A stretch of 43,482 bases of DNA from a virus. The notes beneath the pieces were generated by a model. It did not search any database, had not been told where the DNA came from, and worked only from the letters and a program-made list of their open reading frames with translations. The position numbers and the translations under genes were made by a program. The stretch lies in IMG/VR virus record IMGVR_UViG_3300045974_000421, positions 1 through 43,482 of that record, one strand, 5' to 3'. Positions 1 to 30,069 of the stretch are shown here, piece by piece. How positions within the stretch are numbered: position 1 is the first letter of the stretch; each line of letters opens with the position of its first letter.

Positions 1-3000
1 GGCAGTCTTCCCTCTTCAACCTTCCCGCCCCATTGCTTGATGTACTTACCCACTGCTGTCTGCACTATCTTGTCGTAGAATGCTTTCATGCCTTCACCGC
101 CGACTTTTAGGTCCAGTCCACGGTAATCTCGCACAGTCATTTCAGGATCAGCCTGAAACTCAGTGGCCACTTTTTCGGCCAGCTCTTTGCCGATATACTC
201 TGGAAGTTTATCCAGCGGGACATTCCAGGCAATCTCCTGGGACCTTGCCGAGTCTTTGCCTGTTGCGGAGACAAAAAAAGTATTTCCTCTGAAGTCGCCT
301 TTTCGGATACTAACTTCTGAGATTTGTTTTGCAAGGTCATACCGCTCGGCCTGCGTCTCGCCTTTGGTCCATCCGACCCAGGTCTTGCCTTCGGCCACAG
401 CGTCGCGGATGACCCGCTTGACGAGTTGGAGTGGCCAGTCTTTTTTGTAGGGAGCGTCTGGGATTGCCTGCCTGTGGTCAGCAATGATCTGGCCATTTCT
501 TTGTAGCTTATCGGTAAGAAAGTCAAGACGGGCCTGGTCTTCTTGGCCGAGCTTTCCCCGGGCAGACTTTCCCCCGAGAGCTAGTCCCTCCTGCCATTCG
601 GCATCTGTGATAGGTTGCTCCTTAAGGTCCCCCTTGTACCCCTTGTCCCGTCCCTCCTGGTGCAACTTGCTCTGCAACTCGTCCATGAGAAATCCCTTCT
701 CTCCCTTGGCATCGACCCGTGTGTCGTAGCGCACCCAGGCGAGAGCTTTGAGGTCGCTGTAGTGCGTGGTGTCGCTGGAGGAGAATGGGTATTTTGTGTC
801 GTCGTGGTATTCTTCTGGGACCAAGTCTTTTGCGTCTTCTAGCGACTCCACTGGTCGCTTGTTAATCTTTCTTCCATCTAAGTAGGTGAAGAACCCTTCT
901 GGAGTCTGCTCAAATCTAGTTCTTTTTTCACCAGCAGGAGCCTTCAGCACCAGCTCGGTCTTGTTTGTGCCGCCTGGAGTAGTGTAGCGGGTGTTGCGTG
1001 GCTCTCCGTCGAGGGCTCCAAGTTCATCCACTTCTTCCTCATGAAATTGAATCTCTATTTCATCTCGATAATTCTGTTTCTCGTCTTCTGATAGTTCCTC
1101 CCAAGGAGTCTCATTGTCTTCGTATTCGTAAGCATCTCTGGCCATCCTTTCTAGTTTGTCTTCACTAGATGATTCAGGAGTTCCAAGTCGCACCTCCTCA
1201 ATCGGTAGGGCGTTCTCAGCCAAGTGCTTCATCAACTCTTCCTTCGGCACCTTGCCGCCATTCGCTGCAGCAATGTCGTCGATAGCTTGGTTGAACCCGC
1301 TCCACTTGAGCTCCTCCTCATTCGTGGACTTGGCTCCTAGGGCTTTGGCCTGCTCGGGAGAGAAGACTTTTTGCTGGTCTTTTTCTACAGCATTTTGAAG
1401 CTTGGAGTAGAAACCATTTGTGTCAGTTCCCGGCATGAAATTAAGGCCAGGCGCTTTTATTGAGGGCCCAACAAAAATTTCGTTCTCTCCCCTATTCCCT
1501 TCAATGTGCCCGCCGTGAAAATATGGCTGGTTGCTAATGTCAAGTCCAAGCCGCTGCGAAAGAGCATCAAGCGTGTCGCTATCAATTAACGGGAAATCTT
1601 TTACCGGTACTTTAATAATACTGTTGGCATAGTCAAAATTTTTTCGTTTTGATTTACTTACATTATCCAGCTTTGCCTCAAACACCACTTCTGCAAAACT
1701 TGGGGCAGTTGTGAAAGAGCTTGGGACCTGGCCCCGTTCTCTAGGGTTTAGAGAAACGGCCCGAGTAATGCTAGGAATGCCCGCTTTAAGCAAATCTTGT
1801 CGCGATTCGGCCAGTAACTGATGAAAGATTGAATTGTCTTTTAGCCGATAAAATACCGGAGCAAGAACCTTTGCCCTAGTATCTCCTCGTCTATGCAAAT
1901 TTATTAACTCAATACCTGCGATCATTTCCGCTGCCTCTTTAGTAGGTTCAACTGACGTCAAGAGGTTCCCCACTCTCCAAAAATCACCTTCCTTAGTTAC
2001 TTTTGGGCTGAAGGGTTTTTGCTGAGACTCTGGCACATATTTTTTTAAAGCTTCCGCGTCTAGTAACTCGCTAGCCTTTTGGGGCACTCCAAAATCAGAT
2101 AAATTATCCTGCTGGTATTCTCCGCCGGGCATGAAGTTGATCTTCATCTTGCCGTAGTCAACCGGCAACGGCTGGGCATTCGACTTTATCATGTCATTGA
2201 TGCGGTCCATACGGACACTCATGATGAGGCGGTCGGCGGAATCTTGGCCTTTACGAGTTGGCAGCTTGCTTCGATCGGGATTCAAGCTTTCAGTCTGCTT
2301 GTCAAACAAGTTGAAGAAGTCGTTGATCCGGTTTTTCTTTTGCAGCGCTAGTTCTGGGTCTTTGTCAAGAAGAGTTTCTGATCTTGCTGAGTCGCCTTCT
2401 GCATGAATTCCCTGAGCGTGGTTATTCAGGACTTTCGTGACATCTTCCCAGAAGCGAGTTTGATCGCGGGCCCACAAATCAAGACGCTCGGGAGTCTTAG
2501 CGCTCCAAGCGTTCATTTTGTCAAACATTCGGGAAACTGAAATGGTCGTCGCCAAAAAATTTCCATCTTGACTGAAGTGGTAACCAATTGGCACAACGTC
2601 ACGAATCCTCGGAGCAATAGCTTTATACTTGCCACCACGCAAAGCTGCTTGATATTCAATAACCATGCGCTGGCCGTTCTTCTGCTGAAGAATTTCGTTA
2701 AAGGCAGCGATATTTTTCTTAATTCTCGGAGCTACGATGTCATTCGGTAAAGCGATAATTGCGGCAAGCTGAGAAGGAGACAAAACTCCTCGGTAAGTTC
2801 CGTTTCCTACATCGCGGAGGCGGTCGGCGAAGTTATCGTCCGGAGCTTTGTCAATGGCATTCCGGATGGCTTCAGTCCTCTGCTTGGCTCTTGACTTGAT
2901 TTCTTTATTGGTGAGCACTTGCGGCGAGCCGTCAGGATTCCGCACGATTTCATTGTCGAGAGAAAGCCTTGCCCCGTCGGGCATGCCGGTCAAATCTATT

Positions 3001-6000
3001 TCTGGGGCCAGTGTCATCGGCGTTCCGTTTTCATCAACTAGCTTGCCGTTCTGCATCCGATATTCGCCGACCAGCTGGTTGGCGTTGATGTCAGACGGGA
3101 CTGTCGCCTGATGGATAATATTGCCGGCCTTGTCTCGAACGGTAATCACTTGCTCGTGCCGGAAAAGCTCAGAGTGTTTGTACTGCTCTTGCAAAGCTCG
3201 GTTTGTCATCAAGTCTTTCCAAGAAATATCTGGCACGTCGTGCCCGCCTTTTTCGGAAAATGACATCGAGCCGTTAAAGTCCCGCTGCTGCCGTTGGTAA
3301 TTCCGGAGCATAGCAAGAAGCTGCGGCTCGAGCTGCTGGCCGGTGATTTCAGACACTCCATACTCAGGATGTTCAATTCCGGCGTTTACCAGAGCTTCGT
3401 AGGTTTTTCCGAGCAACGTGTTTGACTTCTTCGAGGCCAGCCAGTCCATGGCAGCTTGCCCTGGGCTGTCTAACGAAGCCCGCCCGCCTGTCACTGCAGA
3501 CCATCCCGCGTGTTCTGCCAGAATTTCTTCCTGCATGTACGCCTTCAAATCTTCCGGGGACATTTTATCAGCAAAAGCAGAAGCTCCGGGTCCTAGTTTT
3601 CGCAGGTAGTTGCTCTTGAATTTTTCTTGATATTCATCTGTGATTAGGCCGTCGTCTAGTTTAACAGTTGTGCCATCCGGGCGGGTGACTGTTTTGCCAA
3701 AAGCAGCCTCGCGAAGCGGCTGGAAAAGAGCTTTGGATTCTTGAAAGTTTTGAAGAGCATGGAAAATTTCATGATTCAGCGTCCAAGCATATGGGGCAAC
3801 TCCTCGAAAAGACTGCTGAGCGTCTGCATTGATTAAAACATGCGCACCAGTGACTCCGGGCATTTGCAGATGCGCTGGAGTTTGGAGCGAGCTGTCTGCG
3901 TTGAGTTTCGTATAGTCGCCTTTTGAAATTTGCATGCCCCGAGTATTTTGGGCACCTTGCAGTTGTTGTCGGAAAGTGTTTATGACTTGATCGGACAGCT
4001 GGAGAGTCTTGTTCTCTGAGTCAGACAGAGATTTAAGCTGGCTAAGACGTGCGGAGTCTGCTTCTGCCTGGGTTAATTTATTTCCCCACTTAGCTCGCAG
4101 CCAGCCTTCAATAGCATGCTGAGGAAGCACTACGACTTCTGTCTGGCCTAGCCCCAAAACTTGACCGGTTGTTTTCATCTGCTCTAAAGCATCTGTCGTA
4201 GCAAGCAAGTGCAGCCGGACACGCTCAGCCAATTGAGCTGGGGTGTAGCTATTCCAGTTCTTTAGTTGCTGCTGAAGTTCTGTTTTAGCTTGCAAAGATT
4301 CGCGAGTCGGAGGAGCGGCGTCGATCGCTGCGATACGGGCTTTGGTTTCTTTACTCTTGGCCTGCGGCGCTGACATATTCTTGATGTTGTCAATCATCGC
4401 GGGATCTGCTGCCTTAACCATGCGAGCAATATCAGCGTCTTCTTCAGCTCTGCGGCTAGACATATCCCGAGCAAGGATTGCGTCAAGTTTTTCTGCTCCG
4501 GTTGTGTGCGGGTTAAGCGTCGTCCCAAGAGCATGGGCTGTGTAATGAGCCCCACCTAGCGCCAAGCCCATTCCAGCGCCTTGCAAGCCTGCCTTAAAAG
4601 CTTCTTCTGGCGTTTCAAAATCAGGGAGCCCGAGCAACGTGTTTATCGCTCCAGCAGAGGCTCCTGATTGAGCAGCCCGATTTACAGCGGAGAAGGTCGC
4701 GTCAAGCGCACGTGCTCGAACAGTCCCTGATGCCTTTGCAGCATTGTTGATAGCCGCGGAAGCTCGGGCTGCGAAATTTTGAGTGGTTTCTCCGACTTCT
4801 TGCTCGATGGCTTTGGCTGCTTGCTGCCCAAAGACGTTTTTGATCCATGTGTCTGGTGCCGCTTCGCGGCCGATCCTTTCGATGAGCCCTGTCCGTGATT
4901 TGAGTCCGCCTTCATTGATTTGTTTTCCTATCGCTGTTGCTGCATCTCCTAAAACCCCTGTAACTTTGGCCAGCGGCCTAAGAGGCACAGCTGACACAAA
5001 AGAGGCATGCTTAAGAAGCTGGCCTTCCGGACCGAAAACGGCTTCCCCACCTTTCTCAGCAGCGTTGCTGATAAAGTCCTGTGTGGCGTTGGCTCCTCGA
5101 CTTAGCCAAGAAAGTGGCGCACCTGTTTTCCCGAGTCCTTTAAGGCCCAACTCAGTGGCTCCCTCAACACCGGCTCTTACTAATGGACGCGCCAAGCCCA
5201 TCGCTTCGTTCACTCCAATAAATGGCGTGCCAAGCGCTGCAGTTGACTCAATACTTGGGTTGACAGTCTGCTTAGCTTCTTGAGCAAAAACGGCTCTTGT
5301 CGCAGGTTCGACGTCAGAAAGCGGCTGGCCAGTAATGTCAGAAATTCCTGCAGCCACCACATTCCCAAGGGGGCCTTTTGCCACTGACCAAGCCAGGCGG
5401 TCGGGGTTTGCTTGAGCGTCTTCAGCGACCCGTTGGTTTGTCATTTGCCGCTGGATATACCGCTCACGGAGTTCTTTTTCAGTCGGAACGACGTAAGGGT
5501 TTTTCCCTTGCAGCGCTTGCACTCCAGCATATCCTAACCCTTTGACATACAGATGCTCGTCAATCCAATCTTGTAGAGCACTTCCGTTAACAGCCATTTT
5601 GGTGACCCCGCCAGCAACGTCTCCAATAAATTTTGCAACCCCAGAACCCACTGACCGGTAAGCTTCTTTCTGTTTCAGTCTTGCTGCTTCGGCTTCAGCC
5701 AAAGCTTTTTCTTGAGCATCCCACGCTTCTTTGCTGCTTGGGTCTGCTTTTACTGCGTCCTGTGCATCCTGGGAATGAAGCGTTTTGCGGACAGCATCGA
5801 CATTGGCAGCTCCGAATTCGTACGCTCCCACAATAGGCTGTTTGGCTCCCTCCCATATGACCCCAGGAGCCTCGCTAAGGACTTCCCCAACAGACTGAGC
5901 CATCGACTTTTGCCGGTGATGATCGAAGACAAGCCCGTGTTGTTCCGCCGTCAACGGTCTCCCTTGCGATTGGAGTTTTGCCAGTTCCTCGGGGCGGGTT

Positions 6001-6212
6001 TCTTCTTCTACTGCTGCTTTTTCAAAAAGCTGGTCAGTTAAACTCGGCTTTTCTTTAGCTTTCGGAGCTTCTTCAGCGGGTTCTGAAAATAGCTTGTCCG
6101 TCAATGACATTGCGGGTTTTGCTGCAGTATCTCTGGGAAGATTAGGTGCTGGCAAATCATCTTGTTTAGCCGGAGTTTCCGCTTCTGCAAATAGTTGGTT
6201 AGTGAGACTCAT
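1..6212 (-). CDS. Giant polyvalent virion protein with metallopeptidase motif, 3' end missing
   Basis: An uninterrupted minus-strand frame runs from an ATG at 6212 to the left edge, giving at least 2070 residues; the C terminus is outside the window. Residues 1-63 hold three copies of SLTxxLF (2-8, 36-42, 57-63). HEIFH at 814-818 with EEILAE at 895-900 looks like a HExxH...E zinc metallopeptidase. Further on come stretches I recognise from phage and plasmid polyvalent proteins: EELKWSGF near 1633-1640, DELQSKLHQEGRDKGY near 1844, DAPYKKDWPLQL near 1917, WTKGETQAERYDLAKQIS near 1948, and GGEGMKAFYDKI near 2038. In that family such proteins are packaged and injected with DNA to act against host functions; this role is inferred here. 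It overlaps the upstream gene by 14 bp and lies at the end of the virion-gene series, next to internal-protein genes. The SD is weak (AGGAAA about 15 bases upstream). Confidence 0.85.
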   Translation of the reverse strand, partial: MSLTNQLFAEAETPAKQDDLPAPNLPRDTAAKPAMSLTDKLFSEPAEEAPKAKEKPSLTDQLFEKAAVEEETRPEELAKLQSQGRPLTAEQHGLVFDHHRQKSMAQSVGEVLSEAPGVIWEGAKQPIVGAYEFGAANVDAVRKTLHSQDAQDAVKADPSSKEAWDAQEKALAEAEAARLKQKEAYRSVGSGVAKFIGDVAGGVTKMAVNGSALQDWIDEHLYVKGLGYAGVQALQGKNPYVVPTEKELRERYIQRQMTNQRVAEDAQANPDRLAWSVAKGPLGNVVAAGISDITGQPLSDVEPATRAVFAQEAKQTVNPSIESTAALGTPFIGVNEAMGLARPLVRAGVEGATELGLKGLGKTGAPLSWLSRGANATQDFISNAAEKGGEAVFGPEGQLLKHASFVSAVPLRPLAKVTGVLGDAATAIGKQINEGGLKSRTGLIERIGREAAPDTWIKNVFGQQAAKAIEQEVGETTQNFAARASAAINNAAKASGTVRARALDATFSAVNRAAQSGASAGAINTLLGLPDFETPEEAFKAGLQGAGMGLALGGAHYTAHALGTTLNPHTTGAEKLDAILARDMSSRRAEEDADIARMVKAADPAMIDNIKNMSAPQAKSKETKARIAAIDAAPPTRESLQAKTELQQQLKNWNSYTPAQLAERVRLHLLATTDALEQMKTTGQVLGLGQTEVVVLPQHAIEGWLRAKWGNKLTQAEADSARLSQLKSLSDSENKTLQLSDQVINTFRQQLQGAQNTRGMQISKGDYTKLNADSSLQTPAHLQMPGVTGAHVLINADAQQSFRGVAPYAWTLNHEIFHALQNFQESKALFQPLREAAFGKTVTRPDGTTVKLDDGLITDEYQEKFKSNYLRKLGPGASAFADKMSPEDLKAYMQEEILAEHAGWSAVTGGRASLDSPGQAAMDWLASKKSNTLLGKTYEALVNAGIEHPEYGVSEITGQQLEPQLLAMLRNYQRQQRDFNGSMSFSEKGGHDVPDISWKDLMTNRALQEQYKHSELFRHEQVITVRDKAGNIIHQATVPSDINANQLVGEYRMQNGKLVDENGTPMTLAPEIDLTGMPDGARLSLDNEIVRNPDGSPQVLTNKEIKSRAKQRTEAIRNAIDKAPDDNFADRLRDVGNGTYRGVLSPSQLAAIIALPNDIVAPRIKKNIAAFNEILQQKNGQRMVIEYQAALRGGKYKAIAPRIRDVVPIGYHFSQDGNFLATTISVSRMFDKMNAWSAKTPERLDLWARDQTRFWEDVTKVLNNHAQGIHAEGDSARSETLLDKDPELALQKKNRINDFFNLFDKQTESLNPDRSKLPTRKGQDSADRLIMSVRMDRINDMIKSNAQPLPVDYGKMKINFMPGGEYQQDNLSDFGVPQKASELLDAEALKKYVPESQQKPFSPKVTKEGDFWRVGNLLTSVEPTKEAAEMIAGIELINLHRRGDTRAKVLAPVFYRLKDNSIFHQLLAESRQDLLKAGIPSITRAVSLNPRERGQVPSSFTTAPSFAEVVFEAKLDNVSKSKRKNFDYANSIIKVPVKDFPLIDSDTLDALSQRLGLDISNQPYFHGGHIEGNRGENEIFVGPSIKAPGLNFMPGTDTNGFYSKLQNAVEKDQQKVFSPEQAKALGAKSTNEEELKWSGFNQAIDDIAAANGGKVPKEELMKHLAENALPIEEVRLGTPESSSEDKLERMARDAYEYEDNETPWEELSEDEKQNYRDEIEIQFHEEEVDELGALDGEPRNTRYTTPGGTNKTELVLKAPAGEKRTRFEQTPEGFFTYLDGRKINKRPVESLEDAKDLVPEEYHDDTKYPFSSSDTTHYSDLKALAWVRYDTRVDAKGEKGFLMDELQSKLHQEGRDKGYKGDLKEQPITDAEWQEGLALGGKSARGKLGQEDQARLDFLTDKLQRNGQIIADHRQAIPDAPYKKDWPLQLVKRVIRDAVAEGKTWVGWTKGETQAERYDLAKQISEVSIRKGDFRGNTFFVSATGKDSARSQEIAWNVPLDKLPEYIGKELAEKVATEFQADPEMTVRDYRGLDLKVGGEGMKAFYDKIVQTAVGKYIKQWGGKVEEGRL

Positions 6213-8265
6213 TGAGGTAGCTTAAATTTCCTGGTGTATTTGAATCAGCTCCTCCGACGGCTCCTTGGAATGTGTCCAGCATCTCGTCTTCGTTTGTGAG
6301 GAACTTTTTGGACTTCATTTCTTGATTTATTTTCTTCCGCTTTTCGAGAAGCGGCTGCAAGGCTTGATGAACTTCTTTATCTCCGCCGCCTTTTTGCCGA
6401 ACAGCTGCTTCGACTTGATTGCCTTCGGCCTGGAGTTTTTCTAAGCCTTCTTTCAAAGAAGCCTGCGTATGCAAAAGGACATACGGCTGCGGCAAGAAAG
6501 TTTCGTCGGTAATGCCTTGCGCCAAATGCTGTTTGCGAAGTTGTGAAACGACTCCATTTCCTTGCCGGGCACCCATGTTGTAGGCTTCGGTTATTGAAGA
6601 AGCCATTGCATCTCGATTATCATCAGCGAGGGCTCGGCCATTCAATGGTTTTCCAAAAGCAATCTGAAATTTATCAGCTAAGCTATTAGCTTGAAGAATC
6701 AAGTGGGCTTGGTCCACTGTTACACGGCCGCCACCTAAAGCTCTTGCATAAGCATCTAGCAGACCGATGTCGTAGATGCCTTGCGCCCGTCCTTTCGGGT
6801 CAGCCCGAAGTTTGTCATATTCAGCAAAGAATCTGCCGATCATCGGGCGAGCTCCCGAAACAGCTTCGAAGTTTTTAATGACAGGCGTCTGGTAAAATTT
6901 CGAATTTTCGAATTGGGCCAATCGCTGCTTGCGTATATCTTCGGTGCTTTTAGCGATAGCTGCAGAATTTTTCATCCGCTCCTTACTTTCAGTGCGAGCC
7001 AAAGTTCGGTCTTCGTCTCTCTTCTGTTGCTCCAAGTCTTTATAGTCCGCGTCTTGACGCTTCTGCACTTCTTTTTCTGGGATTAGCTTGTTGCTCTTGT
7101 CTACTACAACAGTTTGCCCAGCGTTAGGCCCGGAAGAAATCGTAATTTCTCGAAGCCCTTGCATGTGGCGACCCACAGTTGGTACTGGAGCTTGAGCTAA
7201 ACCAGCCTTTGCCGGAGTTGCTGGAATAACGAGATTCTGCTGCGTTAAATCTACGGGCGAAACTGGACTCTCTGCAGCTGTAGCGAATACTGGTTTCCCG
7301 GCGGCTATTCTTTCTTTAGCATGCGCTGCTGCTTTTTGCACGATACCGTCAAACATTTTAGAATCAGCTGAATCTAGTTTTTCAACTGGGGTAGTCAGTA
7401 AATAGTTAACTTCTTTTCTGCTAAGCGTTGGCACCATAGAAGGAACTTCGACTTCTTTGCCTCCAATTTCTACGCCAACAGAAAGCTCAGAAGACACACC
7501 ACCATCTGGGCGTTTAAGAACGCCAAGAAAGCCATTCCCTTTCTGCGAGCCGTCCGCACGTAAATCATTAGCGTTTGGTTTCCATTCTGCTTGAGTAGGC
7601 GAAGCCGCATTAGCCAATCCCAGGGTGGGACCGCCAGGAGTTGCCGGAAGAGGCGCTTCAACTGCGGGCATTCCATCTGGAGACTTGCCATTGGGCACTC
7701 CGACTTTGATACTTGGTTTTGCCGTAGGGGCTGAAACGTTGCCCAACGGAATAGGCACATCCCCCTGTACAACTTCTTGCTGTGGTGAAAGACTGTTTTG
7801 AAGAGCTGGCTGGACTGGTTGACTTGAGTCTTGTCGCGGACTTTGCAAATCTTCTGGAGGGATGGTTGGGTGCTGCTCTTGAAACTCAACAGCTTTTTGG
7901 GCCATGTCTTGCTGTATTCTAGCCAATTCAGCTTGCTGTAGAGGTGTTAGAACTTTTTCATGATTCAGCCGCATTTCTTCCATCCGCATGGATTCCGCGT
8001 GTTGCTGTTTTTGCTGGGCGAGCGTCTCGTCGTGCTCTTTCTTTTGCTGGTCAAGTTCCGTCTTCCGAGTCAGTCCTTTGGCGATCCCCTCAACTCCGAC
8101 CATAATTCCGGCACCAAGATCATGAAGTCCGGCAGTATATTTCTCAATCCCGGAAGTCGGCACCAAGCTTTCACCGCTAACGAAAGAAAGCGGATGCTGC
8201 TGAACTTGGATTTGGTCGTGCGCAAATTGCGGGGAGAAATTAAATCCTCCGGTTTGAATAGCCAT
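6199..8265 (-). CDS. Internal virion protein candidate with conserved phage domain
   Basis: 688 residues. Residues 66-130 are a charged, Gln/Glu/Lys-rich probable coiled coil, and 135-225 are Pro/Ser/Gln-rich and look disordered. Residues about 233-328 form a domain I recognise from many phage internal or tail proteins: GNGFLGVLKRPDG, then a segment on SVGVEIGGKEVEVPSMVPT, ending in VQKAAAHAKERIAAGKPVFA. Its function is not known to me; it commonly sits in podoviral virion proteins. The C-terminal 300 residues are mostly helical and charged with no motif I can name. It follows small Ala/Gly-rich genes and overlaps the giant polyvalent gene, so a place in the ejected internal core is likely but inferred. 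Confidence 0.75.
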   Translation of the reverse strand: MAIQTGGFNFSPQFAHDQIQVQQHPLSFVSGESLVPTSGIEKYTAGLHDLGAGIMVGVEGIAKGLTRKTELDQQKKEHDETLAQQKQQHAESMRMEEMRLNHEKVLTPLQQAELARIQQDMAQKAVEFQEQHPTIPPEDLQSPRQDSSQPVQPALQNSLSPQQEVVQGDVPIPLGNVSAPTAKPSIKVGVPNGKSPDGMPAVEAPLPATPGGPTLGLANAASPTQAEWKPNANDLRADGSQKGNGFLGVLKRPDGGVSSELSVGVEIGGKEVEVPSMVPTLSRKEVNYLLTTPVEKLDSADSKMFDGIVQKAAAHAKERIAAGKPVFATAAESPVSPVDLTQQNLVIPATPAKAGLAQAPVPTVGRHMQGLREITISSGPNAGQTVVVDKSNKLIPEKEVQKRQDADYKDLEQQKRDEDRTLARTESKERMKNSAAIAKSTEDIRKQRLAQFENSKFYQTPVIKNFEAVSGARPMIGRFFAEYDKLRADPKGRAQGIYDIGLLDAYARALGGGRVTVDQAHLILQANSLADKFQIAFGKPLNGRALADDNRDAMASSITEAYNMGARQGNGVVSQLRKQHLAQGITDETFLPQPYVLLHTQASLKEGLEKLQAEGNQVEAAVRQKGGGDKEVHQALQPLLEKRKKINQEMKSKKFLTNEDEMLDTFQGAVGGADSNTPGNLSYLNESH

Positions 8266-8278
8266 AAATTAAGACAAG

Positions 8279-8710
8279 TTAGCTCCCGCCTAGTTTTACA
8301 TTGGATGGAGAGTAAAAAGAATTTCCGGCTTTAAGAATCGCTTGGGCAAACGGAGTCGCATTTGGCGTTAGCCCGGGAGCAGTCTGAGCGCCTGGCGAAG
8401 CCAGATTCCCCGCGGCATTTCCAGCAATCGGTGCGTTGGCTCCGGTCGCTTGGCTTCCGGCTGCTTGGTTTGTTGCTGATTGATTTGTCAACGCTGTTTT
8501 GTCAGCGGCTTGCTGGACTGAATCATGCGTTGCTTGAACACGGGCTGCTTCATCAGCCGCTGCTTGTGCGGCAGCTGCTGCTTGCTGCTTGTTTAAGCTA
8601 TCCTGATAAGCTTGAATCTGCTGCTGTTGAGCTTGCTGTTGAGCTGCCATCTGTGCCGCCCATTCTTTGCTGCTGTTGTTATTCCCGCCGCTACTTTTGC
8701 TGCCGCCCAT
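8279..8710 (-). CDS. Small Ala/Gln-rich virion protein candidate
   Basis: 143 residues, starting MGGSKSSGGNNN. The middle is a low-complexity Gln/Ala helix (QQQAQQQQ and AAAAAQAAADEAA), followed by an Ala/Gly/Pro/Thr-rich tail. There is no enzyme motif, signal peptide or membrane segment. The Gly-start and low-complexity style match the 244-residue protein encoded at 9859-10593, and both sit in the internal-protein part of the late series, so a minor internal virion role is the best guess. A 13-bp gap separates it from the 688-residue gene. No homologue is recognised by eye. Confidence 0.6.
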   Translation of the reverse strand: MGGSKSSGGNNNSSKEWAAQMAAQQQAQQQQIQAYQDSLNKQQAAAAAQAAADEAARVQATHDSVQQAADKTALTNQSATNQAAGSQATGANAPIAGNAAGNLASPGAQTAPGLTPNATPFAQAILKAGNSFYSPSNVKLGGS

Positions 8711-8714
8711 ATAT

Positions 8715-9026
8715 TTACTGCGCTCCTTTCGTTTGTATGTTAAGAACCCGGTCTCGTGCTTCTAGGCAGAGGGTTGATCCGGGTTTGAAATTTTTGCATG
8801 CGCTCGGCCGGTGTTCATAAACCGTGCAATGGACGCAGTGTCCAACCGAGCCGGAAAGCGCTGCGCAACGATTTCCAACTGTCTGCATGAGTGGCAAGTC
8901 GGCGCGGATGAGAAACGAGGGAATACCCGTGGCGTCCGAGCGATCGCGTTTGAGGACAGGCCAGCTCCAGCGGTAAGCGCAACATGCTCCACAACGTGTG
9001 CAGTCATATTCATTGGCAGAAAGCAT
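8715..9026 (-). CDS. CxxCxxCC (YkgJ-type) metal-cluster protein
   Basis: 103 residues from the ATG at 9026. A TTG start at 9080 would add 18 residues but would overlap the preceding gene by 71 bp; the ATG overlaps by only 17 bp. C9, C12, C15 and C16 form the CxxCxxCC signature, and a later group reads CVHCTVYEHRPSACKNF, the C-x-YE-x-RP-x-x-C pattern of the YkgJ family. These small proteins are thought to bind zinc or an iron-sulphur cluster; no reaction is established. The gene comes straight after a PAPS-reductase-like gene with overlapping ends, so the two are probably translated together. Paired function is an inference. Confidence 0.8.
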   Translation of the reverse strand: MLSANEYDCTRCGACCAYRWSWPVLKRDRSDATGIPSFLIRADLPLMQTVGNRCAALSGSVGHCVHCTVYEHRPSACKNFKPGSTLCLEARDRVLNIQTKGAQ

Positions 9027-9855
9027 GGGTTTCCGATTTCTTTGAATCTCGTAAAGAGCAGTAGCGGGCGGAAGGCTCAAACCACTCGACGGCTTTCGGG
9101 TTGTTGTTCATGACGACATTATATTTCGGGCAGCGGACAAACTCGGGGCCTTTCTTGTCGCAGCAAGCAAAGCAGGCGTGGTAATAATCTGGGTTATACC
9201 GAGTGTTGGGCAGAACTTTATGCTTTTCAACGTCGTAGCGAGTTTTGTCGTACGGGATCTGATGCCCGTGAATATAGTCAAAAATATCGTCGTCAGTCCA
9301 ATGACGAAGAGGAAAAATTGCGGACGCAGAAAGGGGGTTCTGCATAATGTCGGTCCGCAACGGCATCTCGCCAGAAGTCGGATCTACATCGCATGACTTA
9401 TGCCCATGGAACAGCGAGTCCCAGGGAAAGTTGAACGTGCCCAAGGGCCGTGATAGGAACGTTTCTACACCGCAAAGGTAGGGCTGATTTTTTTCTGGCT
9501 TTTCAGTGCCACGGGCCAAAGTGATAAAATCGGGAGCTGTAATCCCGGGCATGTTTATCTGGTAAGAATTTAGGACATCTATCCGGCCGTTTCCCGAACA
9601 CAACTTAACATGCGAAGGAGCCCAGTCCCATACTTCGAGTTGCCAGTCTTGAATGACCGAATTGGCAAAAGCTTGTTTTTCAGGAAACCAAGGTTCTTTG
9701 AAGCAGATACACGGCAAGTTGTGGAATAACTGAAACTTGATGAGATGCAGCAAGACCATTGAGTCTTTACCGCCGCTCCAAAGAACTGCTGGGCGCTTGA
9801 ACTTGTCAAGAGCTTGTTCAATGACACGGCAAGATTCTTTGACGATTTCTTTCAT
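9010..9855 (-). CDS. PAPS-reductase-like PP-loop enzyme
   Basis: 281 residues. SGGKDS at 27-32 is the PP-loop of the adenine nucleotide alpha-hydrolase / PAPS reductase fold. Later features also fit the family: the FPLRHWTDDDIFDYI segment, and a C-terminal Cys group HACFACCDKKG with RCPKY. The family uses ATP- or PAPS-like substrates in sulphur transfer or reduction. Phages carry many divergent members with unknown substrates, so assimilatory sulphate reduction should not be assumed. It lies inside a block of virion genes, three bases after the 244-residue gene, and is followed by the overlapping CxxCxxCC gene. This looks like a cargo gene in the late series. Confidence 0.85.
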   Translation of the reverse strand: MKEIVKESCRVIEQALDKFKRPAVLWSGGKDSMVLLHLIKFQLFHNLPCICFKEPWFPEKQAFANSVIQDWQLEVWDWAPSHVKLCSGNGRIDVLNSYQINMPGITAPDFITLARGTEKPEKNQPYLCGVETFLSRPLGTFNFPWDSLFHGHKSCDVDPTSGEMPLRTDIMQNPLSASAIFPLRHWTDDDIFDYIHGHQIPYDKTRYDVEKHKVLPNTRYNPDYYHACFACCDKKGPEFVRCPKYNVVMNNNPKAVEWFEPSARYCSLRDSKKSETHAFCQ

Positions 9856-9858
9856 GGC

Positions 9859-10593
9859 TTAAAAAGCTATTAGACCCCCACCGATAGCCCCAGCAGCTCC
9901 GATTCCCGCACCGCCAAGACCCAGCATCGAGCCGGACATAGCGTTGTTTGCACTGGAAGCTCCCGAACGTCGAGCGGCTTCCATCTGCATAGCTTGCTGA
10001 AAGCCATTCATAACATTCTGGCTTTCGTTGCCAAGAGCTCCCAAAACATTCTGCGTGTAGTTATTCAAAGCGTTTGTGTTCCCTGACTCAACGCCCGTCT
10101 TGTACGAAGCCAAAGTTCCAGGGTCAAGTCCAGTCACTGGAAGAGGATTCGCTGAAAGTAATGAAGCAGCCTTTGCTTGCTGGGCATCCCGATTTTGATA
10201 ATAGTCTTGCCGGGTAGTATCTGCGAGAGCCGACCGAGCAAAAGTTCCATCAGCATTTGCTCCCGTGGCAATGGTATCTCCAAGGCCTTGCTTCAACCAC
10301 TCGTTAGAAAGCTGAACGCTTGGCCCGCCATTCAAATCTTCATTGACTTGCTTCGAGAGTCCCGCTCGAGTCGCGGCAATGTCTGGAGTCAGTTGCTGTT
10401 CACGAGCAGCAGCGTCGAGAGCATTCTTGAGGGACTCGTTTCCGACCATAGTCTGCAGCCCATTGATGTCCATGTTCTGAAGCACCGGGGCTGCCGCGAT
10501 TGTTGCGTTTGTGACGCCGTTAGTAAGGTTAAGACCAGAAAATAAATTCTGGTTGTAACCTTGAATTGGTGCTGCTGTAGAGGCTCCGCCCAT
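9859..10593 (-). CDS. Internal virion protein candidate, Gly/Ala-rich C terminus
   Basis: 244 residues starting MGGASTAAPIQ. The body is polar and rich in Asn, Gln, Ala and Ser, with predicted helices around 55-125 and 180-210. The last 25 residues are a Gly/Ala-rich hydrophobic stretch (GLGGAGIGAAGAIGGG, then LIAF) that could insert into a membrane. Small internal or injection proteins of podoviruses often have this mix, but no specific family is recognised. It sits between the possible acyltransferase gene and the PAPS-reductase-like gene. The Gly-rich start resembles the protein encoded at 8279-8710. Confidence 0.65.
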   Translation of the reverse strand: MGGASTAAPIQGYNQNLFSGLNLTNGVTNATIAAAPVLQNMDINGLQTMVGNESLKNALDAAAREQQLTPDIAATRAGLSKQVNEDLNGGPSVQLSNEWLKQGLGDTIATGANADGTFARSALADTTRQDYYQNRDAQQAKAASLLSANPLPVTGLDPGTLASYKTGVESGNTNALNNYTQNVLGALGNESQNVMNGFQQAMQMEAARRSGASSANNAMSGSMLGLGGAGIGAAGAIGGGLIAF

Positions 10594-12242: not shown

Positions 12243-15200
12243 TTAAGCGCAAGGCAAAGCTGCAACGGCTTTCTGATTGGCCAAAGCCAAGGCCTGAGTA
12301 TTAGCATCAACTTGACTAATAGAACTTCGGGCGGCTCCTCCTTGAGTCGTTTGAACGGCGTTTGAAATTAGCGCCCCTGTGTAGTCGATACGAGCCCAAT
12401 AAGCTGCGCCGGAAGTACCATTATATGACGTGAAACTGCCTCCGATATGAATCATGCTAGAGATTTCATCCAAGACTAAAGTATTAACTGAACCTCCAGC
12501 AAAAGTTTGCGCTGTAAATCCGCCAAGCAATCCCCCAGTGCTTGTTAGGCCAAGCAAGTATGAAGCGGCTAAACTATTGTACGTCGTAAAAGCACCTCCT
12601 AAAAACACAGCCCCATCTGAACGAATCTTAAGACTTTTAGCTGCTAAGTTTAACCCAGTTCCTACATTGAAAGCTGCGTCGATAACTCCGGCGTTAGTAA
12701 GCCGAACTAGATTCTTTCCGCTGTTAGCTCCTGCAAAGGACACTACCACAGATTGGTCAGCTTGGATTGCGCAAGAGGCAAAACCTGGATCTGAAGTCGT
12801 TACTTCATAAGCTGTGAATGTCCCGTCTACAGCTCCTGCGGCTGTTGTTAAACGCACAACACGCGCTTTTCCAGAAACTGAAGAATACCCGACAACCACA
12901 ATTTTATCGTTAACGCTGTCGTATGCCACAGCGTAAACTTTAGTAAAACCTATAGGCGTAAATGTCCCATCAAGAGTTCCAGCGGCCGTAACTCTCACAA
13001 GAGGCACCGAAACAGAGATTCCTAAAGCCGAAGTGAACGAGCCCCCGACAATGACCATATCAGTTAAGGAATGAGGCGACCAGCATGAACAAACTGGAGC
13101 GACATCAAAGCCGCCTGTGAGAACAGCCGTCGGGTCAATTTCTCCAGTAGGCAAAAGCTTACAGACACGCACTCTCGACTGGTTAGTGTACTGGGTAAAT
13201 TCCCCAAAAATCATGACGTACCCGCCACTCATTTCTGACATTGTTGTGACTTGTCGGCTTGTCGGCTCATCACTTCCTACTGGAATCGTTGAGCTCAAAA
13301 ACCCATTCTGCACTGCCCAGGCTACGTCCGGAGTACCATCAGGATTTCTACGGGCAATTTTTCCTTGAATTGTTGGAGTTGAAGAGCCAACATTAGTTGA
13401 CCGCCAAAAAGAACCGCCAAGAATCGTTCCCGGCGAGGGCGGGTTAACTGACGGGATATGAATCCCCCAGTATGTCTGGATGATTATCGCGTTGACTGCC
13501 GCGTTTAGCGTCGCATAGCAAGACCTCGTAACATATTCTACTGAATCCCAGAAGCATGGATATTGAGTGCGAAGATAGGCGATTTGACTCAATGCTGACT
13601 GAGCGGCCGCTGCACTCGCTAAAGTGTCTGCGTCAGCTTGTGAAATACGAGATTTGTAAGATGAAACAGCTGTGACTGAGATAGGTCCAGTAACTGAGCC
13701 AGCGCCACAAGCAAGCGTCTCAGTGTGGCTTTTCTTTGAAATCCAAGCGTGTACTCCGGAAGAAGTATATTGGTCTTCAATCGGCACGAATCCCGGGATG
13801 CGCGAAAAGCTTTGATTCTGCCCGCCTTCGTCAACAAGGCACACTTTAGTTTCATCTTTCTCACAAACGCCATGCACAGTTTCAGGAAAAGCGTCGAGAA
13901 AAACTCGTACTGACTCAACAGCTAATTGCCCGCACCAGCGGACGAGCAGCGAAAAAGCTTTATCCACATTCTCACTGTTAGGACTCTCACACGTTGGGCA
14001 TCCCGCATTAGGGTCCCCTTCTTGGGTAGATATTTTCCGAGTTTGTTTTCGGAGCAACCCCATTTCGACAGCTTGGTCTGCGGTGATCTTGATTCCGGCG
14101 GTAGCCAAATCGATAGGAGCAATCATTTTTTTGCAGGCGATTTGTTTGAAAGCTCCCCGGCGTCCGCGATAATCAATCCGGATATTTGTGTCTCCGGCTA
14201 ATTCGATGATGTCCACTTCTGCGTAAGAAAATTGCTTTAAATCAGGCCCATCTCCGAGCAGCCGAGTCTCGAATTCACAATAGATAGGCTGCACATAAGC
14301 ATTGGTAGTAAAGTCATCTTCCAGCTCAAAAAATGTGTCTTGCCGCTCGGGTACAAAAGCTTCCCAAATATGATTGTGCGAACCGTCAGACAGTGCCGTG
14401 TAATCGACAGACGCACAGAAAGCTCGCCGTTTGGTCCCAATCAGCGCCGACACCCATTGCATAGGCCGAATGCCCGTCCAGACGCTGGACCAGGCCGGCT
14501 GTTTGTCAGAGAGCAACTCTCCCACGACTGAGTAATCAAGCACGAAAGTTTCAGCGTTTAAATTTTGCCCGATGGGCAAAGACATCAATAAATAATTTTC
14601 AAAGCTAAGCCCACAAATTCCTGATTGGTCGTCTGCAAGAAATTGTTTCGAAAAAGCCATCTCGGCATCTTTGAAAGTTATCTGAGAAGTGACATAGCTA
14701 GACGCAGCTGAGTCCGACGAGACCAGCCCGCCTTCGGCGTACCACCACATCAAGCCGGCTTGAAAAACAATGCTATTCCCGGCAACGCAGCCGATACTCG
14801 GAAAGAGCACTGTTTGAAAATTACCGGTAGACGCCCACTTGGTCCGGTCTTTCACTCCTGAGTTAAGCGACGAGACTTGACTTTCGGTAAAAATAATAAC
14901 TGACTCAGTTCGGCTGTCCCCAATAAAACTTGTCAAGCCGGTTATTGTTTTCGGATAAGCAAAATCTCCTCGGCCGATGCCAGCAGTTCGCTCGGTAAAC
15001 TTCAGTGGATCGAGCAAATCCCCCGCAATAAGAATTTTGTCCCGAGCAACCCAAAGCCGGTTGCCTGAAAAAGTCATCCAGTTTCCTCTCGGTGTCTCTA
15101 AGGTTGGGGCCGCTTCAGAAAGATGCCGACTTTCTTCTCCATCCCAGTAAGCGGCCGCGTTCAAGCCATCCTGCATCATCAAAACGTTATACGTCGGGAC

Positions 15201-15623
15201 AATTTGCAAAGTCGAATCAGCAAGCGTCTGCAAAGTTTTCTGTGCAACACAAAAATGGACTTGATTAACATTCGGGTCAAACCCAATTTGCGGGAGTTGA
15301 AACTTGCTCCAGTCTCTTGGTTGAGCTAACGGGAAAGGAATAGCATAAACTAAGCCGTTGACAGCCGCGACAAGATAATCGACGTTCGTGTTATTCTTTG
15401 TTTCTTGAAAATGCGCAATTCCCTGCAGATTTCCTGCCGGCAAGATCAAACGCATTGCAAATCCAGGGCGAGTCTGGGCCACTCCGCCGCGGTTGACAAT
15501 GTTTAGCCCTCTGCGGTACTGAGATTCTTGCAAAAGCCAAGGGTGCCGAAGAGTGTTCATGCCGCTTGTCCATCCGGCATCGACTTTCACCGTTTTTCCG
15601 GACATTATATTTGGACTTTGCAT
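12243..15623 (-). CDS. Large tail protein: N-terminal nozzle-like region, DUF5977-like segments and delta-60 propeller
   Basis: 1126 residues. The N-terminal half starts with VDAGWTSGMNTLRHPWLL and RRGLNIVNRGGVAQTRPGF, the pattern of podoviral tail tube / stabilisation proteins built as beta-propellers. Around 638-672 a Cys/Gly segment with SYKSRISQADADTLA matches the DUF5977 style, and a second partial copy (SSISQVDANTQALALAN) closes the protein. From about 741 to 1081 I count seven repeats of the delta-60 / DUF5122 kind, such as GGSFTSALG, then a strand, then G-x-x-D-x-x-F. Seven repeats would make one seven-bladed propeller. It comes just after the head-tail adaptor gene, as nozzle genes do. 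ATG at 15623 is used; Met7 is an alternative. Confidence 0.8.
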   Translation of the reverse strand: MQSPNIMSGKTVKVDAGWTSGMNTLRHPWLLQESQYRRGLNIVNRGGVAQTRPGFAMRLILPAGNLQGIAHFQETKNNTNVDYLVAAVNGLVYAIPFPLAQPRDWSKFQLPQIGFDPNVNQVHFCVAQKTLQTLADSTLQIVPTYNVLMMQDGLNAAAYWDGEESRHLSEAAPTLETPRGNWMTFSGNRLWVARDKILIAGDLLDPLKFTERTAGIGRGDFAYPKTITGLTSFIGDSRTESVIIFTESQVSSLNSGVKDRTKWASTGNFQTVLFPSIGCVAGNSIVFQAGLMWWYAEGGLVSSDSAASSYVTSQITFKDAEMAFSKQFLADDQSGICGLSFENYLLMSLPIGQNLNAETFVLDYSVVGELLSDKQPAWSSVWTGIRPMQWVSALIGTKRRAFCASVDYTALSDGSHNHIWEAFVPERQDTFFELEDDFTTNAYVQPIYCEFETRLLGDGPDLKQFSYAEVDIIELAGDTNIRIDYRGRRGAFKQIACKKMIAPIDLATAGIKITADQAVEMGLLRKQTRKISTQEGDPNAGCPTCESPNSENVDKAFSLLVRWCGQLAVESVRVFLDAFPETVHGVCEKDETKVCLVDEGGQNQSFSRIPGFVPIEDQYTSSGVHAWISKKSHTETLACGAGSVTGPISVTAVSSYKSRISQADADTLASAAAAQSALSQIAYLRTQYPCFWDSVEYVTRSCYATLNAAVNAIIIQTYWGIHIPSVNPPSPGTILGGSFWRSTNVGSSTPTIQGKIARRNPDGTPDVAWAVQNGFLSSTIPVGSDEPTSRQVTTMSEMSGGYVMIFGEFTQYTNQSRVRVCKLLPTGEIDPTAVLTGGFDVAPVCSCWSPHSLTDMVIVGGSFTSALGISVSVPLVRVTAAGTLDGTFTPIGFTKVYAVAYDSVNDKIVVVGYSSVSGKARVVRLTTAAGAVDGTFTAYEVTTSDPGFASCAIQADQSVVVSFAGANSGKNLVRLTNAGVIDAAFNVGTGLNLAAKSLKIRSDGAVFLGGAFTTYNSLAASYLLGLTSTGGLLGGFTAQTFAGGSVNTLVLDEISSMIHIGGSFTSYNGTSGAAYWARIDYTGALISNAVQTTQGGAARSSISQVDANTQALALANQKAVAALPCA

Positions 15624-27295: not shown

Positions 27296-28501
27296 TTACA
27301 GGCCAGTCGAGCTGGTCAAGCAGCTTGCAAGTCCGGTGTCGAAGGCACAACGCTTGTAGCTGAACGGCACGACGGCGTGCGGGCGAAGCGGCTGGTAGGC
27401 ACGGCTGATCTGATAGATATGCTGGCCAAAGTCGAGGAACAAGTTACAATCATTGTCCCGGACAGACACCCACTCGAGTTCACCCATAGAGAGCTGAGGC
27501 GCGAACTTGAAGGTACCTTCACCAGAATAACGCTCTGGCGTTAAGCGGGAGAAGGATTCGCCGCCGACGATAAACCCAATCTCGTAGTTAGCCGACACCC
27601 AAGCTGGGTTACGGCGAGCTGCAACACCGTTAGTCGTGGCCACACTAATTTCTGGCTCAATGAGAATTGGCTTTCCGTTTCCGTCAAGCGCGTTAAATCG
27701 CAGGGGCTGCGAATCAACACCCAAAGCAAACCCGCGATAGCCTTGGAACTGATACCCAGAGATTGACTGCTCGCCGAGCTTGAAGCTTCCCGCAGTAAGA
27801 TACTTGAGATCTTCTTTGACGTCCGCGCTGTTGCGGAAGTTCTCAATCTGGTCAATAGAGGCAATGACCATGAAGAAGTCGCCGCTCTCAGTTCCAAAAG
27901 GCTCGACGAGGAGATCCTCACGGAGCAGAGAACCAAGCTTATACAGCGTCTTGAAGTTCATCGGCGCATCGGGAAGAACCGGATAGAACGCCGTATCGAT
28001 AGCCTGAGCTTCGCCAGTCACCAGGCTAGAAAATGGAACGCCAGTTTTGGCGACAAATTTCACACCTGAGCGGTTAAGCAACGTGGCTCGAATATCAGCA
28101 TTCATAACCTGCAGAACACCTTTTTCCAAGGCCATCTGCGCTTGCAGATACGCGCCTTTGAAAGCCGTGCGACTGGTTTTGATACAGACACGAGGCCCAA
28201 GACCCCGCAACGACTGGAGCTGGTACTGATACTCGGTCGAGCCGACTTGATCCGGAGTTGCACCAGTTCCGCAAAGCGAAACATCATTGGTGAATACCGG
28301 AGCCGCCAAGCTGGAAGCCATAACAGCCCGCTCTTGAACAACCGACCGCACGACGTCTGAAACGTTGGGGATCGAGCCGCCCTTGAGGATGTTGATATAC
28401 GGCGATTTACGGGCCAAGACTTTGGCAATCTGCCCTATGATTCGGTTTGTGTCTTTCGCGGCGAAGTTTTGGACCGCGGAAAGAGAAATACAATCTGACA
28501 T
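27296..28501 (-). CDS. Major capsid protein
   Basis: 401 residues. The composition and layout fit a podoviral / HK97-fold major capsid protein: a helical N-terminal region (NRIIGQIAKVLARKSPYINI), a long helix-rich middle with FKTLYKLGSLLREDLLVEPF, then strands. The C-terminal part has NPAWVSANYEIGFIVGGESF and a region ending FGQHIYQISRAYQPLRPHA. No single diagnostic motif exists, so the call rests mainly on size, position between the scaffold/portal region and the tail genes, and the flanking terminator-like and promoter-like gaps that give it its own unit. The SD is weak (AGAAAG). Confidence 0.75.
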   Translation of the reverse strand: MSDCISLSAVQNFAAKDTNRIIGQIAKVLARKSPYINILKGGSIPNVSDVVRSVVQERAVMASSLAAPVFTNDVSLCGTGATPDQVGSTEYQYQLQSLRGLGPRVCIKTSRTAFKGAYLQAQMALEKGVLQVMNADIRATLLNRSGVKFVAKTGVPFSSLVTGEAQAIDTAFYPVLPDAPMNFKTLYKLGSLLREDLLVEPFGTESGDFFMVIASIDQIENFRNSADVKEDLKYLTAGSFKLGEQSISGYQFQGYRGFALGVDSQPLRFNALDGNGKPILIEPEISVATTNGVAARRNPAWVSANYEIGFIVGGESFSRLTPERYSGEGTFKFAPQLSMGELEWVSVRDNDCNLFLDFGQHIYQISRAYQPLRPHAVVPFSYKRCAFDTGLASCLTSSTGL

Positions 28502-28738: not shown

Positions 28739-29503
28739 TTAGAAAAATTGACTATGCTCCCACTTTGTCCCGATCAAAGGACTTGTTTTAGCCGGAGTAT
28801 GCTGGGAGACCCAGTCACGCACAGAGCTGTCCTTAATGCCATGCAACCAAACAGTGCCTTGTCGGACTAACCCGAGAATAAAGTCCGCAGAAACTGTTGG
28901 GGTTTGCCACATAGAATAAAACCGAGAATCCCCTTTCCAGCCTAGCCGCTCGAATAATCGGGCGTGGTAAACATCCCATGGCTGATTGGCGTCGCAGCCC
29001 CAAAGTTGCACTGACTCGTTGAAAAGCGTTGCCTCGAAAAGAGCGTTGCCGTTAACATGCCCGGGCTCGCAAGGAGACGGATGCCAATACCCCACTATTT
29101 TGGAGTCCTGCCGCTCTTCCCAGGCTTGCTGCAGTTGCACGTCCCAATTTCCGACAAGCGGGCACGCATCAGCTTCTGTCGTCAGTACGCTAGAATAGTC
29201 CATTTCGCCACGTTTTATCGACTCCGCAACCCATTGAATCGTGCCGTGCCAAAGTCCGTTGCATCCCCCTGGATAACCCGTTTCTTTACGTGGAGAAGTA
29301 AACAGCAAAACTTGCCCAAACACTTCTTGCAAATCTTGCACCAACCGGGTAGAAAATTTCCGACAATCGAATCGAGTGACTAAAGCGAGATCGGCAGCTT
29401 TGTACCCGTTTTCTGGAGCAAGCCGGAGCAAAACTTTACACAAAGACTCGCCGTCTTTAATATCTCCCTCCCACACTTGGAGAGCAAGCAAGAACTTTTT
29501 CAT
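28739..29503 (-). CDS. Glycosyltransferase-like protein (GT-A fold)
   Basis: 254 residues from the ATG at 29503, giving an ATGA overlap with the methyltransferase gene; the 290-residue start would overlap it by 112 bases. The start LLALQVWEGD, the DLALVTRFDC strand, and VLTTEADACPL (E110-A111-D112 as a DxD-like metal site) suggest a nucleotide-sugar transferase fold. GYPGGCNGLWHGT and the later WDVYHARLFERLGW look like acceptor-side elements. It is the last gene of the sugar/methyl block before the capsid gap. The exact family is not recognised. Confidence 0.6.
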   Translation of the reverse strand: MKKFLLALQVWEGDIKDGESLCKVLLRLAPENGYKAADLALVTRFDCRKFSTRLVQDLQEVFGQVLLFTSPRKETGYPGGCNGLWHGTIQWVAESIKRGEMDYSSVLTTEADACPLVGNWDVQLQQAWEERQDSKIVGYWHPSPCEPGHVNGNALFEATLFNESVQLWGCDANQPWDVYHARLFERLGWKGDSRFYSMWQTPTVSADFILGLVRQGTVWLHGIKDSSVRDWVSQHTPAKTSPLIGTKWEHSQFF

Positions 29504-30069
29504 GCCGGCAACTGTATCCACCAAGATTTGTCTAGCTCGTCGGCCATGGTTGTATGCAGGGAAAGATTGCGATCGGCAGTGAATTTCGTCACAGTTGACT
29601 TTACCTCGCACTTATAATACGGCTCGTCAAGGTCATAAAAATCATGCCCGCCAAAGATTCCACCCGGTTTGACTTTCTGGATCCAGCCATCAAGATCACG
29701 CTTGAGTTGCGGGTTGTGGTGGTTGCCGTCAATGTAAACAAAATCAAGCGACTTGTCTGCTACTCGCAACAACGCCTCATCGCTCGTCATGCGCAAGGCA
29801 ATCGTGCGTGATGGGAACTTGGCGAGCCGCTCAATGCAGTGGTTGTATGCGCCATCGAAGTCAATGTTCGCCGAGCCATCAACATATTCCCCACACGCCT
29901 TACGATCCCACGGATCGACGAGCAACAATCCGTGACCCTGCCATAATTTTAGAATCTGCTCGGCATTCTCTCCATATGCCACGCCAATCTCAGCTCCAAT
30001 GTTCTTTAGCCTAAGCTGGTTGAGCAGCAGCCCGAGTCCCTTGCGATTTGTTAAGTCTGTCAATCTCAT
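29500..30069 (-). CDS. Class I SAM-dependent methyltransferase
   Basis: 189 residues from the ATG at 30069, which gives an ATGA overlap with the upstream gene; a start 12 bases earlier is possible. Motif I is GAEIGVAYGENAEQIL (25-40). LLLVDPWD is the acidic strand-2 end, and LDFVYIDGNHHNPQLKRDL with the KPGGIFGGHDF post-motif identifies the Methyltransf_24 / FkbM-like Rossmann type. Members commonly methylate sugars or small molecules. Set between three glycosyltransferase-like genes, it may cap or modify the glycan they make. Confidence 0.8.
   Translation of the reverse strand: MRLTDLTNRKGLGLLLNQLRLKNIGAEIGVAYGENAEQILKLWQGHGLLLVDPWDRKACGEYVDGSANIDFDGAYNHCIERLAKFPSRTIALRMTSDEALLRVADKSLDFVYIDGNHHNPQLKRDLDGWIQKVKPGGIFGGHDFYDLDEPYYKCEVKSTVTKFTADRNLSLHTTMADELDKSWWIQLPA

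Follow-up and report, generated by a model that had tools for sequence, protein, structure and literature searches.

A giant polyvalent-type phage protein with a zincin-type motif pair, lineage-specific linkers and candidate N-terminal tags

The giant gene and its class

Since at least 2017 it has been an open question in what way the giant proteins that phages inject are packed and cut, and how they diversify. The largest gene of the viral contig IMGVR_UViG_3300045974_000421, whose 43,482 bases (positions 1 to 43,482) are called the window here, is a single open reading frame (ORF) at 3-6212 on the minus strand, starting with ATG at 6212 and running for 2070 codons without a stop to the contig edge. 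A preliminary description of the sequence had claimed one frame of at least 2070 residues that lacks its C terminus, follows the internal virion protein genes, carries the motifs HEIFH and EEILAE, and belongs to the polyvalent proteins of phages. The frame, its truncation and its place held, and both motifs lie exactly where they were given (H814-E815-I-F-H818 and E895-E-I-L-A-E900). Our comparisons support the class as well. Beyond membership, the protein combines lineage-specific linkers at module borders, N-terminal repeats and a predicted GNAT-fold domain, and two of its orthologues have exchanged modules; this linker and tag anatomy, the swap and the GNAT-fold domain appear to be undescribed.

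3-6212, minus strand: gene for the giant polyvalent-type protein, 2070 amino acids (aa) up to the contig edge, which truncates it at the 3' end
2010-5723, minus strand: residues 164-1401, the conserved chassis, which shares 34% identity with the orthologues L038 and L039
6199-8265, minus strand: gene for a probable internal virion protein of 688 aa, overlapping the giant's start by 14 bases; its first 78 residues are conserved in the L038 and L039 phages

The assignment to the polyvalent class (Iyer et al. 2017, PMC5512222) leans on relatives and on location. With the window protein as query we retrieved 33 viral and 3 genome loci, all matching through residues within about 1559-2070. A profile scan then found the C-terminal domain in more than 500 viral stretches, of which 80 were kept; the 113 ORFs recovered comprise giants of 1.2-5.3 thousand aa and ORFs of about 410-1000 aa. 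Among the sampled giants, Pfam found ART-PolyVal, LPD38, LPD3 and LPD23. Because relatives carry these domains and the gene lies among late virion genes, we place the giant in this class. It also joins disparate domains in one polypeptide, a zincin-type region with an invariant motif and a predicted GNAT-fold domain. The window protein itself matched no Pfam model, curated LPD and ART-PolyVal models included; a curated match is not required for membership, since the class spans 131 domain types. The chain of polyvalent domains described earlier stood at the sequence level for the C-terminal domain only: no part of the protein had a Pfam match, and tblastn with residues 561-1600 returned nothing from the plasmid collection and only insignificant crAssphage matches from the phage collection.

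A scan with residues 1010-1600 led to two orthologues, L038 (3936 aa) and L039 (3874 aa). Because these complete proteins measure about 3,900 aa, the window probably holds about half of the giant. They are 34% identical to the window protein over residues 164-1401 and divergent afterwards, with C-terminal modules unlike those of the window. A further viral scan with the family alignment added only a third, more distant member, L119, and the L038 chassis matched none of 50,697 phage records. The giant's start codon falls in the stop region of the 688-aa gene, within its final 14 bases; the protein of that gene found no matches as a query in the viral scan. The genes at 6199-8265, 8279-8710, 9010-9855 and 9859-10593 lie upstream in the same order as in L038 and L039, and in these two phages synteny extends to a tail-type gene of 1126 aa and to small genes of virion type, which places the giant near the late genes.

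A zincin-type region

3213-4352, minus strand: zincin-type region, residues 621-1000, recognised by sequence conservation and covered by a low-confidence structure model
3759-3773, minus strand: HEIFH, residues 814-818, with H814 and H818 as predicted zinc ligands and E815 as predicted base; H, E and H are invariant in the family
3513-3530, minus strand: EEILAE, residues 895-900, second-helix glutamate motif; E895, E896 and E900 are invariant in the family

The peptidase-like unit of the preliminary description stood as a motif pair. H814, E815, H818, E895, E896 and E900 are invariant in four sequences (the window protein, L038, L039 and L119, the latter three 23-32% identical to the first), and by composition HExxH is expected only 0.04 times in the window protein. 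Across 70 non-redundant giants the motif occurred 47 times against 3.5 expected, a 13-fold excess, and a motif resembling EE.hA[ED] (h, hydrophobic) follows HExxH by 48-93 residues also in L009, L030, L053, L116, L117 and L119. These observations support a zincin-type metallopeptidase identity at the level of sequence. On the structural side, an AlphaFold2 (AF2) model of residues 621-1000 built from only four sequences had a predicted local distance difference test score (pLDDT) of 53, too low to read whether the HEIFH residues and the glutamates come together, as the preliminary description had suggested they might. A helix was predicted at 886-908 with low confidence, and the poor model is most likely due to too few sequences. 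Foldseek and VIA-align matches of this model were set aside as not interpretable, their ranges falling on helices other than the HEIFH region. Residues 734-1000 matched nothing in Pfam at E<=10, and the zincin region alone found no matches in the viral scan.

Linkers at module borders

2127-2138, minus strand: linker NFMP, residues 1359-1362, near the chassis end; the orthologous site in L038 is at 1342
1443-2126, minus strand: module between two linkers, residues 1363-1590, possibly an R-S-E-type ADP-ribosyltransferase (ART) by eye only (YRL, SFTT, ENEI)
1431-1442, minus strand: linker NFMP, residues 1591-1594, preceding the GNAT-fold domain

Downstream of the chassis, short peptides recur at the borders of modules. 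L038 carries SFMP at 3496 and SYMP at 3640 and 3873, and Pfam recognises a GNAT module (3534-3601) before the SYMP at 3640 and an ADPrib_exo_Tox ART (3643-3816) after it. In L039, SFMP 3280 and SYMP 3467 are each followed by a GNAT module, and a third segment, between SYMP 3621 and DFMP 3779, resembles an ART by eye. In three family members [FY]MP occurs 11 times against 0.66 expected, a count that includes the site at 1360, inherited from a common ancestor. In 67 other giants it occurs 10 times against 13 expected, with no excess, so a single universal linker is ruled out: FMP is enriched in the window family only. FSR occurs 56 times in these 67 giants against 21 expected, or 53 against 21 once three copies in LPD38-like sequence are dropped. 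In the window NFMP precedes the GNAT-fold domain, whereas in L005, L016 and L053 that domain has FSR on both sides, and F[SM][RKPN] stands in 8 of 35 windows directly before this domain compared with 2.5% of random windows. The same domain thus borders on different linkers in different lineages, and module borders carry a lineage-specific linker, [SND][FY]MP in the window family and an FSR type in other giants.

The module between the two NFMP linkers may be an R-S-E-type ART. Its model has a pLDDT of mostly 25-68, and R, S-T-S and ExE-like elements (YRL, SFTT, ENE) were picked out by eye. Residues 1362-1595 had no Pfam match at E<=10, and an hhalign comparison of residues 1363-1590 with the L038 ART was not significant.

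Module exchange between two orthologues

L038 and L039 give direct evidence that C-terminal GNAT and ART cassettes have been exchanged between near-identical genes, with the linkers as joints. Their DNA is about 91-92% identical through most of the gene. Homology ends at residue 3517 of L038 and resumes at 3834, and within the swapped part the two genes share only two DNA islands, of 45 bp and 30 bp, both on SYMP linkers. Codon choice at the linkers varies (TTC, TTT or TAT for the first residue of FMP or YMP, and CCA, CCC, CCG or CCT for proline), as do the flanks; because codon choice varies, selection likely acts on the linker peptide. Such natural exchange suggests that the giants diversify in the manner of polymorphic toxins.

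A second variable site lies at residues 1980-2490 of L038 and 1981-2287 of L039. There, a short stretch recurs within each giant, and L039 lacks segments of about 90-200 aa that L038 has.

A predicted GNAT fold in the C-terminal domain

15-1415, minus strand: residues 1600-2066, the C-terminal domain, predicted to have a GNAT fold interrupted by large insertions, with an invariant E1845-x-Q1847-S1848

The domain through which the relatives were found is present in more than 500 viral contigs and has no Pfam or NCBIfam model. Its AF2 model, built from 47 sequences, reached a pLDDT of mostly 80-98 over the well-predicted parts. When this model was compared with known structures by VIA-align, nearly all of the top 50 rows were GNATs (Z 7.4-8.3), drawn from the NatA, NatC, NatD, SSAT, TacT, AtaT and Eis subfamilies and mostly aligning 102-131 residues across model residues 217-699; the best row had Z 8.3 and a root-mean-square deviation of 3.3 over 108 residues. 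Foldseek against the PDB gave no significant match, with many acetyltransferases among the weak ones. E1845, Q1847 and S1848 are invariant in the 47 sequences. Few parts of the family are as conserved as the strand matching beta-4, on which the invariant glutamate lies, and the loop that comes next; the consensus following beta-4, QSDWxQEGKKKGF, partly matches the pyrophosphate loop [RQ]xxGx[GA], and a variable insertion follows.

The model thus assigns residues 1600-2066 to the GNAT fold, a statement about fold and not about function. In hhalign the domain showed no sequence-profile similarity to the GNAT modules of L038 and L039 (E 0.54), and because such similarity to known GNATs is absent we speak of a GNAT-fold domain rather than of a GNAT enzyme. 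A domain found in more than 500 viral contigs without a family model has hereby received a predicted fold. Two RimI-like GNAT families have been described in polyvalent proteins, one of them usually adjoining an ART (Iyer et al. 2017, PMC5512222). Among the viral loci of the profile scan, many ORFs of only 620-890 aa hold the GNAT-fold domain outside giants.

N-terminal repeats

6024-6209, minus strand: three short repeats SLTNQLF, SLTDKLF and SLTDQLF (SLTxxLF), residues 2-63, candidate capsid-targeting tags

At its other end the protein opens with three copies of a short unit. L038 has ASEEIRKRL, ASEQIREKL and SEIIRRKK at this place, and L119 has PPDEQIKRNK, SPEDQIAENK and PPDQQIAQNK; units in other giants include FFDALDSI, LDFDPFE, PDLLDDVAS and LPPGFVVQ. 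By a shuffle test (p<=0.02), N-terminal repeats were detected in 14 of 56 giants, whereas the two control sets gave 7 of 210 (internal windows) and 5 of 122 (other ORFs), hence 25% of giants and 3-4% of controls (8-10 fold odds; Fisher p 3e-6 and 8e-5). According to the P1 DarB study (PMC9024508), the first 30 residues of DarB are enough for capsid targeting, and a search for a consensus among the Dar proteins found none. By analogy, the repeats fit a capsid-targeting N-terminus of this kind, and both of these findings would be accounted for by a tag that is multivalent and specific to each lineage.

Among the other proteins of the same phages, L086 alone offered a convincing copy of a repeat unit. 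There a 245-aa ORF adjoining the giant (L086:4328-5065) starts with PDLLDDV, the unit of that giant's tandem N-terminal repeat, possibly a shared packaging tag.

Proposed function and alternatives

We propose, as a reasonably probable reading, that the giant is a capsid-targeted, injected chain of polyvalent effectors, perhaps cut at its linkers; its packaging, injection, cleavage, catalysis and targets are all inferred. The N-terminal repeats would act as capsid-targeting tags, so that the chain is packed in the head, leaves it with the DNA and is injected into the host. Behind the conserved chassis (about residues 160-1400), which includes the zincin, exchangeable effector modules would be lined up one after another. 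In the window these would be one module of no assigned type, possibly an ART, and one of GNAT fold; in the relatives they would be GNAT and ART modules. The linkers would serve as sites of module swapping by recombination and would be the likeliest cut sites, for the giant's own zincin or for a phage maturation protease, after which the modules could act separately. Given the zincin, cleavage at linkers is plausible. The modules may then modify host proteins by acetylation or ADP-ribosylation, blunting defences or redirecting the cell.

Several points weigh against this proposal. The zincin model is of low confidence, the GNAT fold lacks sequence-level support from hhalign, Pfam and NCBIfam, and a large insertion occupies the expected acetyl-CoA site. 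The FMP motif was picked after inspection, and a large share of the FSR copies come just behind the GNAT-fold domain's C-terminal end, so that they are not independent of this domain. Of 16 giants with two or more FSR, four have no HExxH, and a pairing of FSR linkers with a zincin in the same protein was not supported (p 0.38); cis-cleavage by a zincin is thus not a general rule. Moreover, the virion RNA polymerase (vRNAP) of phage N4 contains an HExxH domain and yet enters the virion without being processed (Iyer et al. 2017, PMC5512222). The linkers might accordingly be recombination joints and flexible spacers only, the injected chain acting uncut like beads on a string. We give this explanation slightly less than an even chance: within the swap, L038 and L039 share no DNA islands other than the linkers, and the uncut N4 protein has been described as flexibly linked subdomains, whereas third codon positions and flanks vary at the linkers, and the peptide motif persists where local DNA homology does not, in family members down to 23-34% identity. 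The neighbouring internal virion genes, and the N4 precedent of an HExxH domain in a packaged, uncut protein, would also suit a mainly structural ejection protein, an internal core or ejectosome component whose HExxH domain is structural and non-proteolytic, as may hold for the C1 domain of N4 vRNAP. The exchange of GNAT and ART modules between near-identical genes fits effectors under diversifying selection better, and we consider a mainly structural role quite unlikely.

The two ends of the protein allow simpler explanations of their own. The C-terminal domain could have a fold unrelated to GNATs that happens to show a common alpha-beta arrangement. In favour of this are the absent sequence-level match, the canonical loop being just partly present, and a Z of about 8, at which chance arrangements occur according to the tool's own note. 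Such a coincidence would have to account for GNATs of many subfamilies filling nearly all of the top 50 rows, mostly over 102-131 residues, and for an invariant glutamate on the strand matching beta-4, and appears improbable to us. Likewise, the N-terminal repeats could be incidental duplications without function, given that unit sequences differ between lineages and that 42 of the 56 giants have no repeats by the shuffle test; the enrichment over both controls, and the three copies kept in the window, L038 and L119 despite a changed unit, make this unlikely in turn. A wider generalization of the effector-chain proposal is more tentative, and we regard it as rather doubtful: polyvalent proteins would carry a readable code, in which lineage-specific repeated N-terminal tags serve multivalent capsid targeting, a linker word (FMP here, FSR elsewhere) marks both the module border and the cut site of a resident or phage protease, and modules are traded via the linkers. 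If true, the giant would be a programmable chain of injected effectors. The linkers yield exact predicted cut sites and the N-terminal repeats exact predicted packaging tags.

Comparison with known systems

The closest parallels are the polyvalent proteins of Iyer et al. 2017 (PMC5512222), which are likewise giant multidomain proteins beside late virion genes with a zincin-type HExxH; ART and GNAT modules and ART-PolyVal, LPD38, LPD3 and LPD23 occur in relatives of the window protein. The window protein differs in having no Pfam LPD match, and in the searched text of that paper neither lineage-specific linkers nor N-terminal tandem tags nor this predicted GNAT-fold domain came up. Among open-licence papers, which our literature search covered, no description of the linkers or tandem tags was found. 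P1 DarB resembles the proposed chain in being a very large injected multidomain protein with packaging directed by its N-terminal residues; it has helicase-methylase domains, and tandem repeats are not described for it in the accessible part of the source (PMC9024508). N4 vRNAP (gp50; PMC12633501), a giant protein that a short-tailed phage ejects, likewise has HExxH, in a domain of its C-terminal part; among the differences, the window protein revealed no RNA polymerase, and N4 vRNAP is packaged unprocessed.

Polymorphic toxins (PMC3482391) share the plan in which the N-terminal chassis is conserved and the enzyme cassettes at the C terminus can be exchanged; the window giant differs in carrying several effector modules in series, in being a phage gene beside virion genes, and in that no immunity gene was seen. 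The main match of the zincin region in the 50,697 phage records was a crAssphage RNA polymerase-associated protein fused to a zincin protease (gp45); it fell on the stretch with the second-helix motif and was not significant (E 0.5).

Other genes in the window

The portal-like protein of 772 aa encoded at 33277-35595 (minus strand) had no match in the 50,697 phage records, and for this reason the window lineage seems absent from that collection. Within the virion gene run, the minus-strand gene at 9010-9855 is of the PAPS-reductase type (PF01507, E 5.8e-9) and is 42-43% identical to its counterparts in the L038 and L039 phages and 34% in L119. At 12243-15623 (minus strand) lies a gene for a probable tail protein of 1126 aa with DUF5122 beta-propeller repeats, conserved in L117-L119. 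At 28739-31705 (minus strand) one gene resembles a methyltransferase (phrog_2675) and others look by eye like sugar transferases, an unusual place for them, between a capsid-type gene (27296-28501) and a scaffold-like gene of 426 aa.

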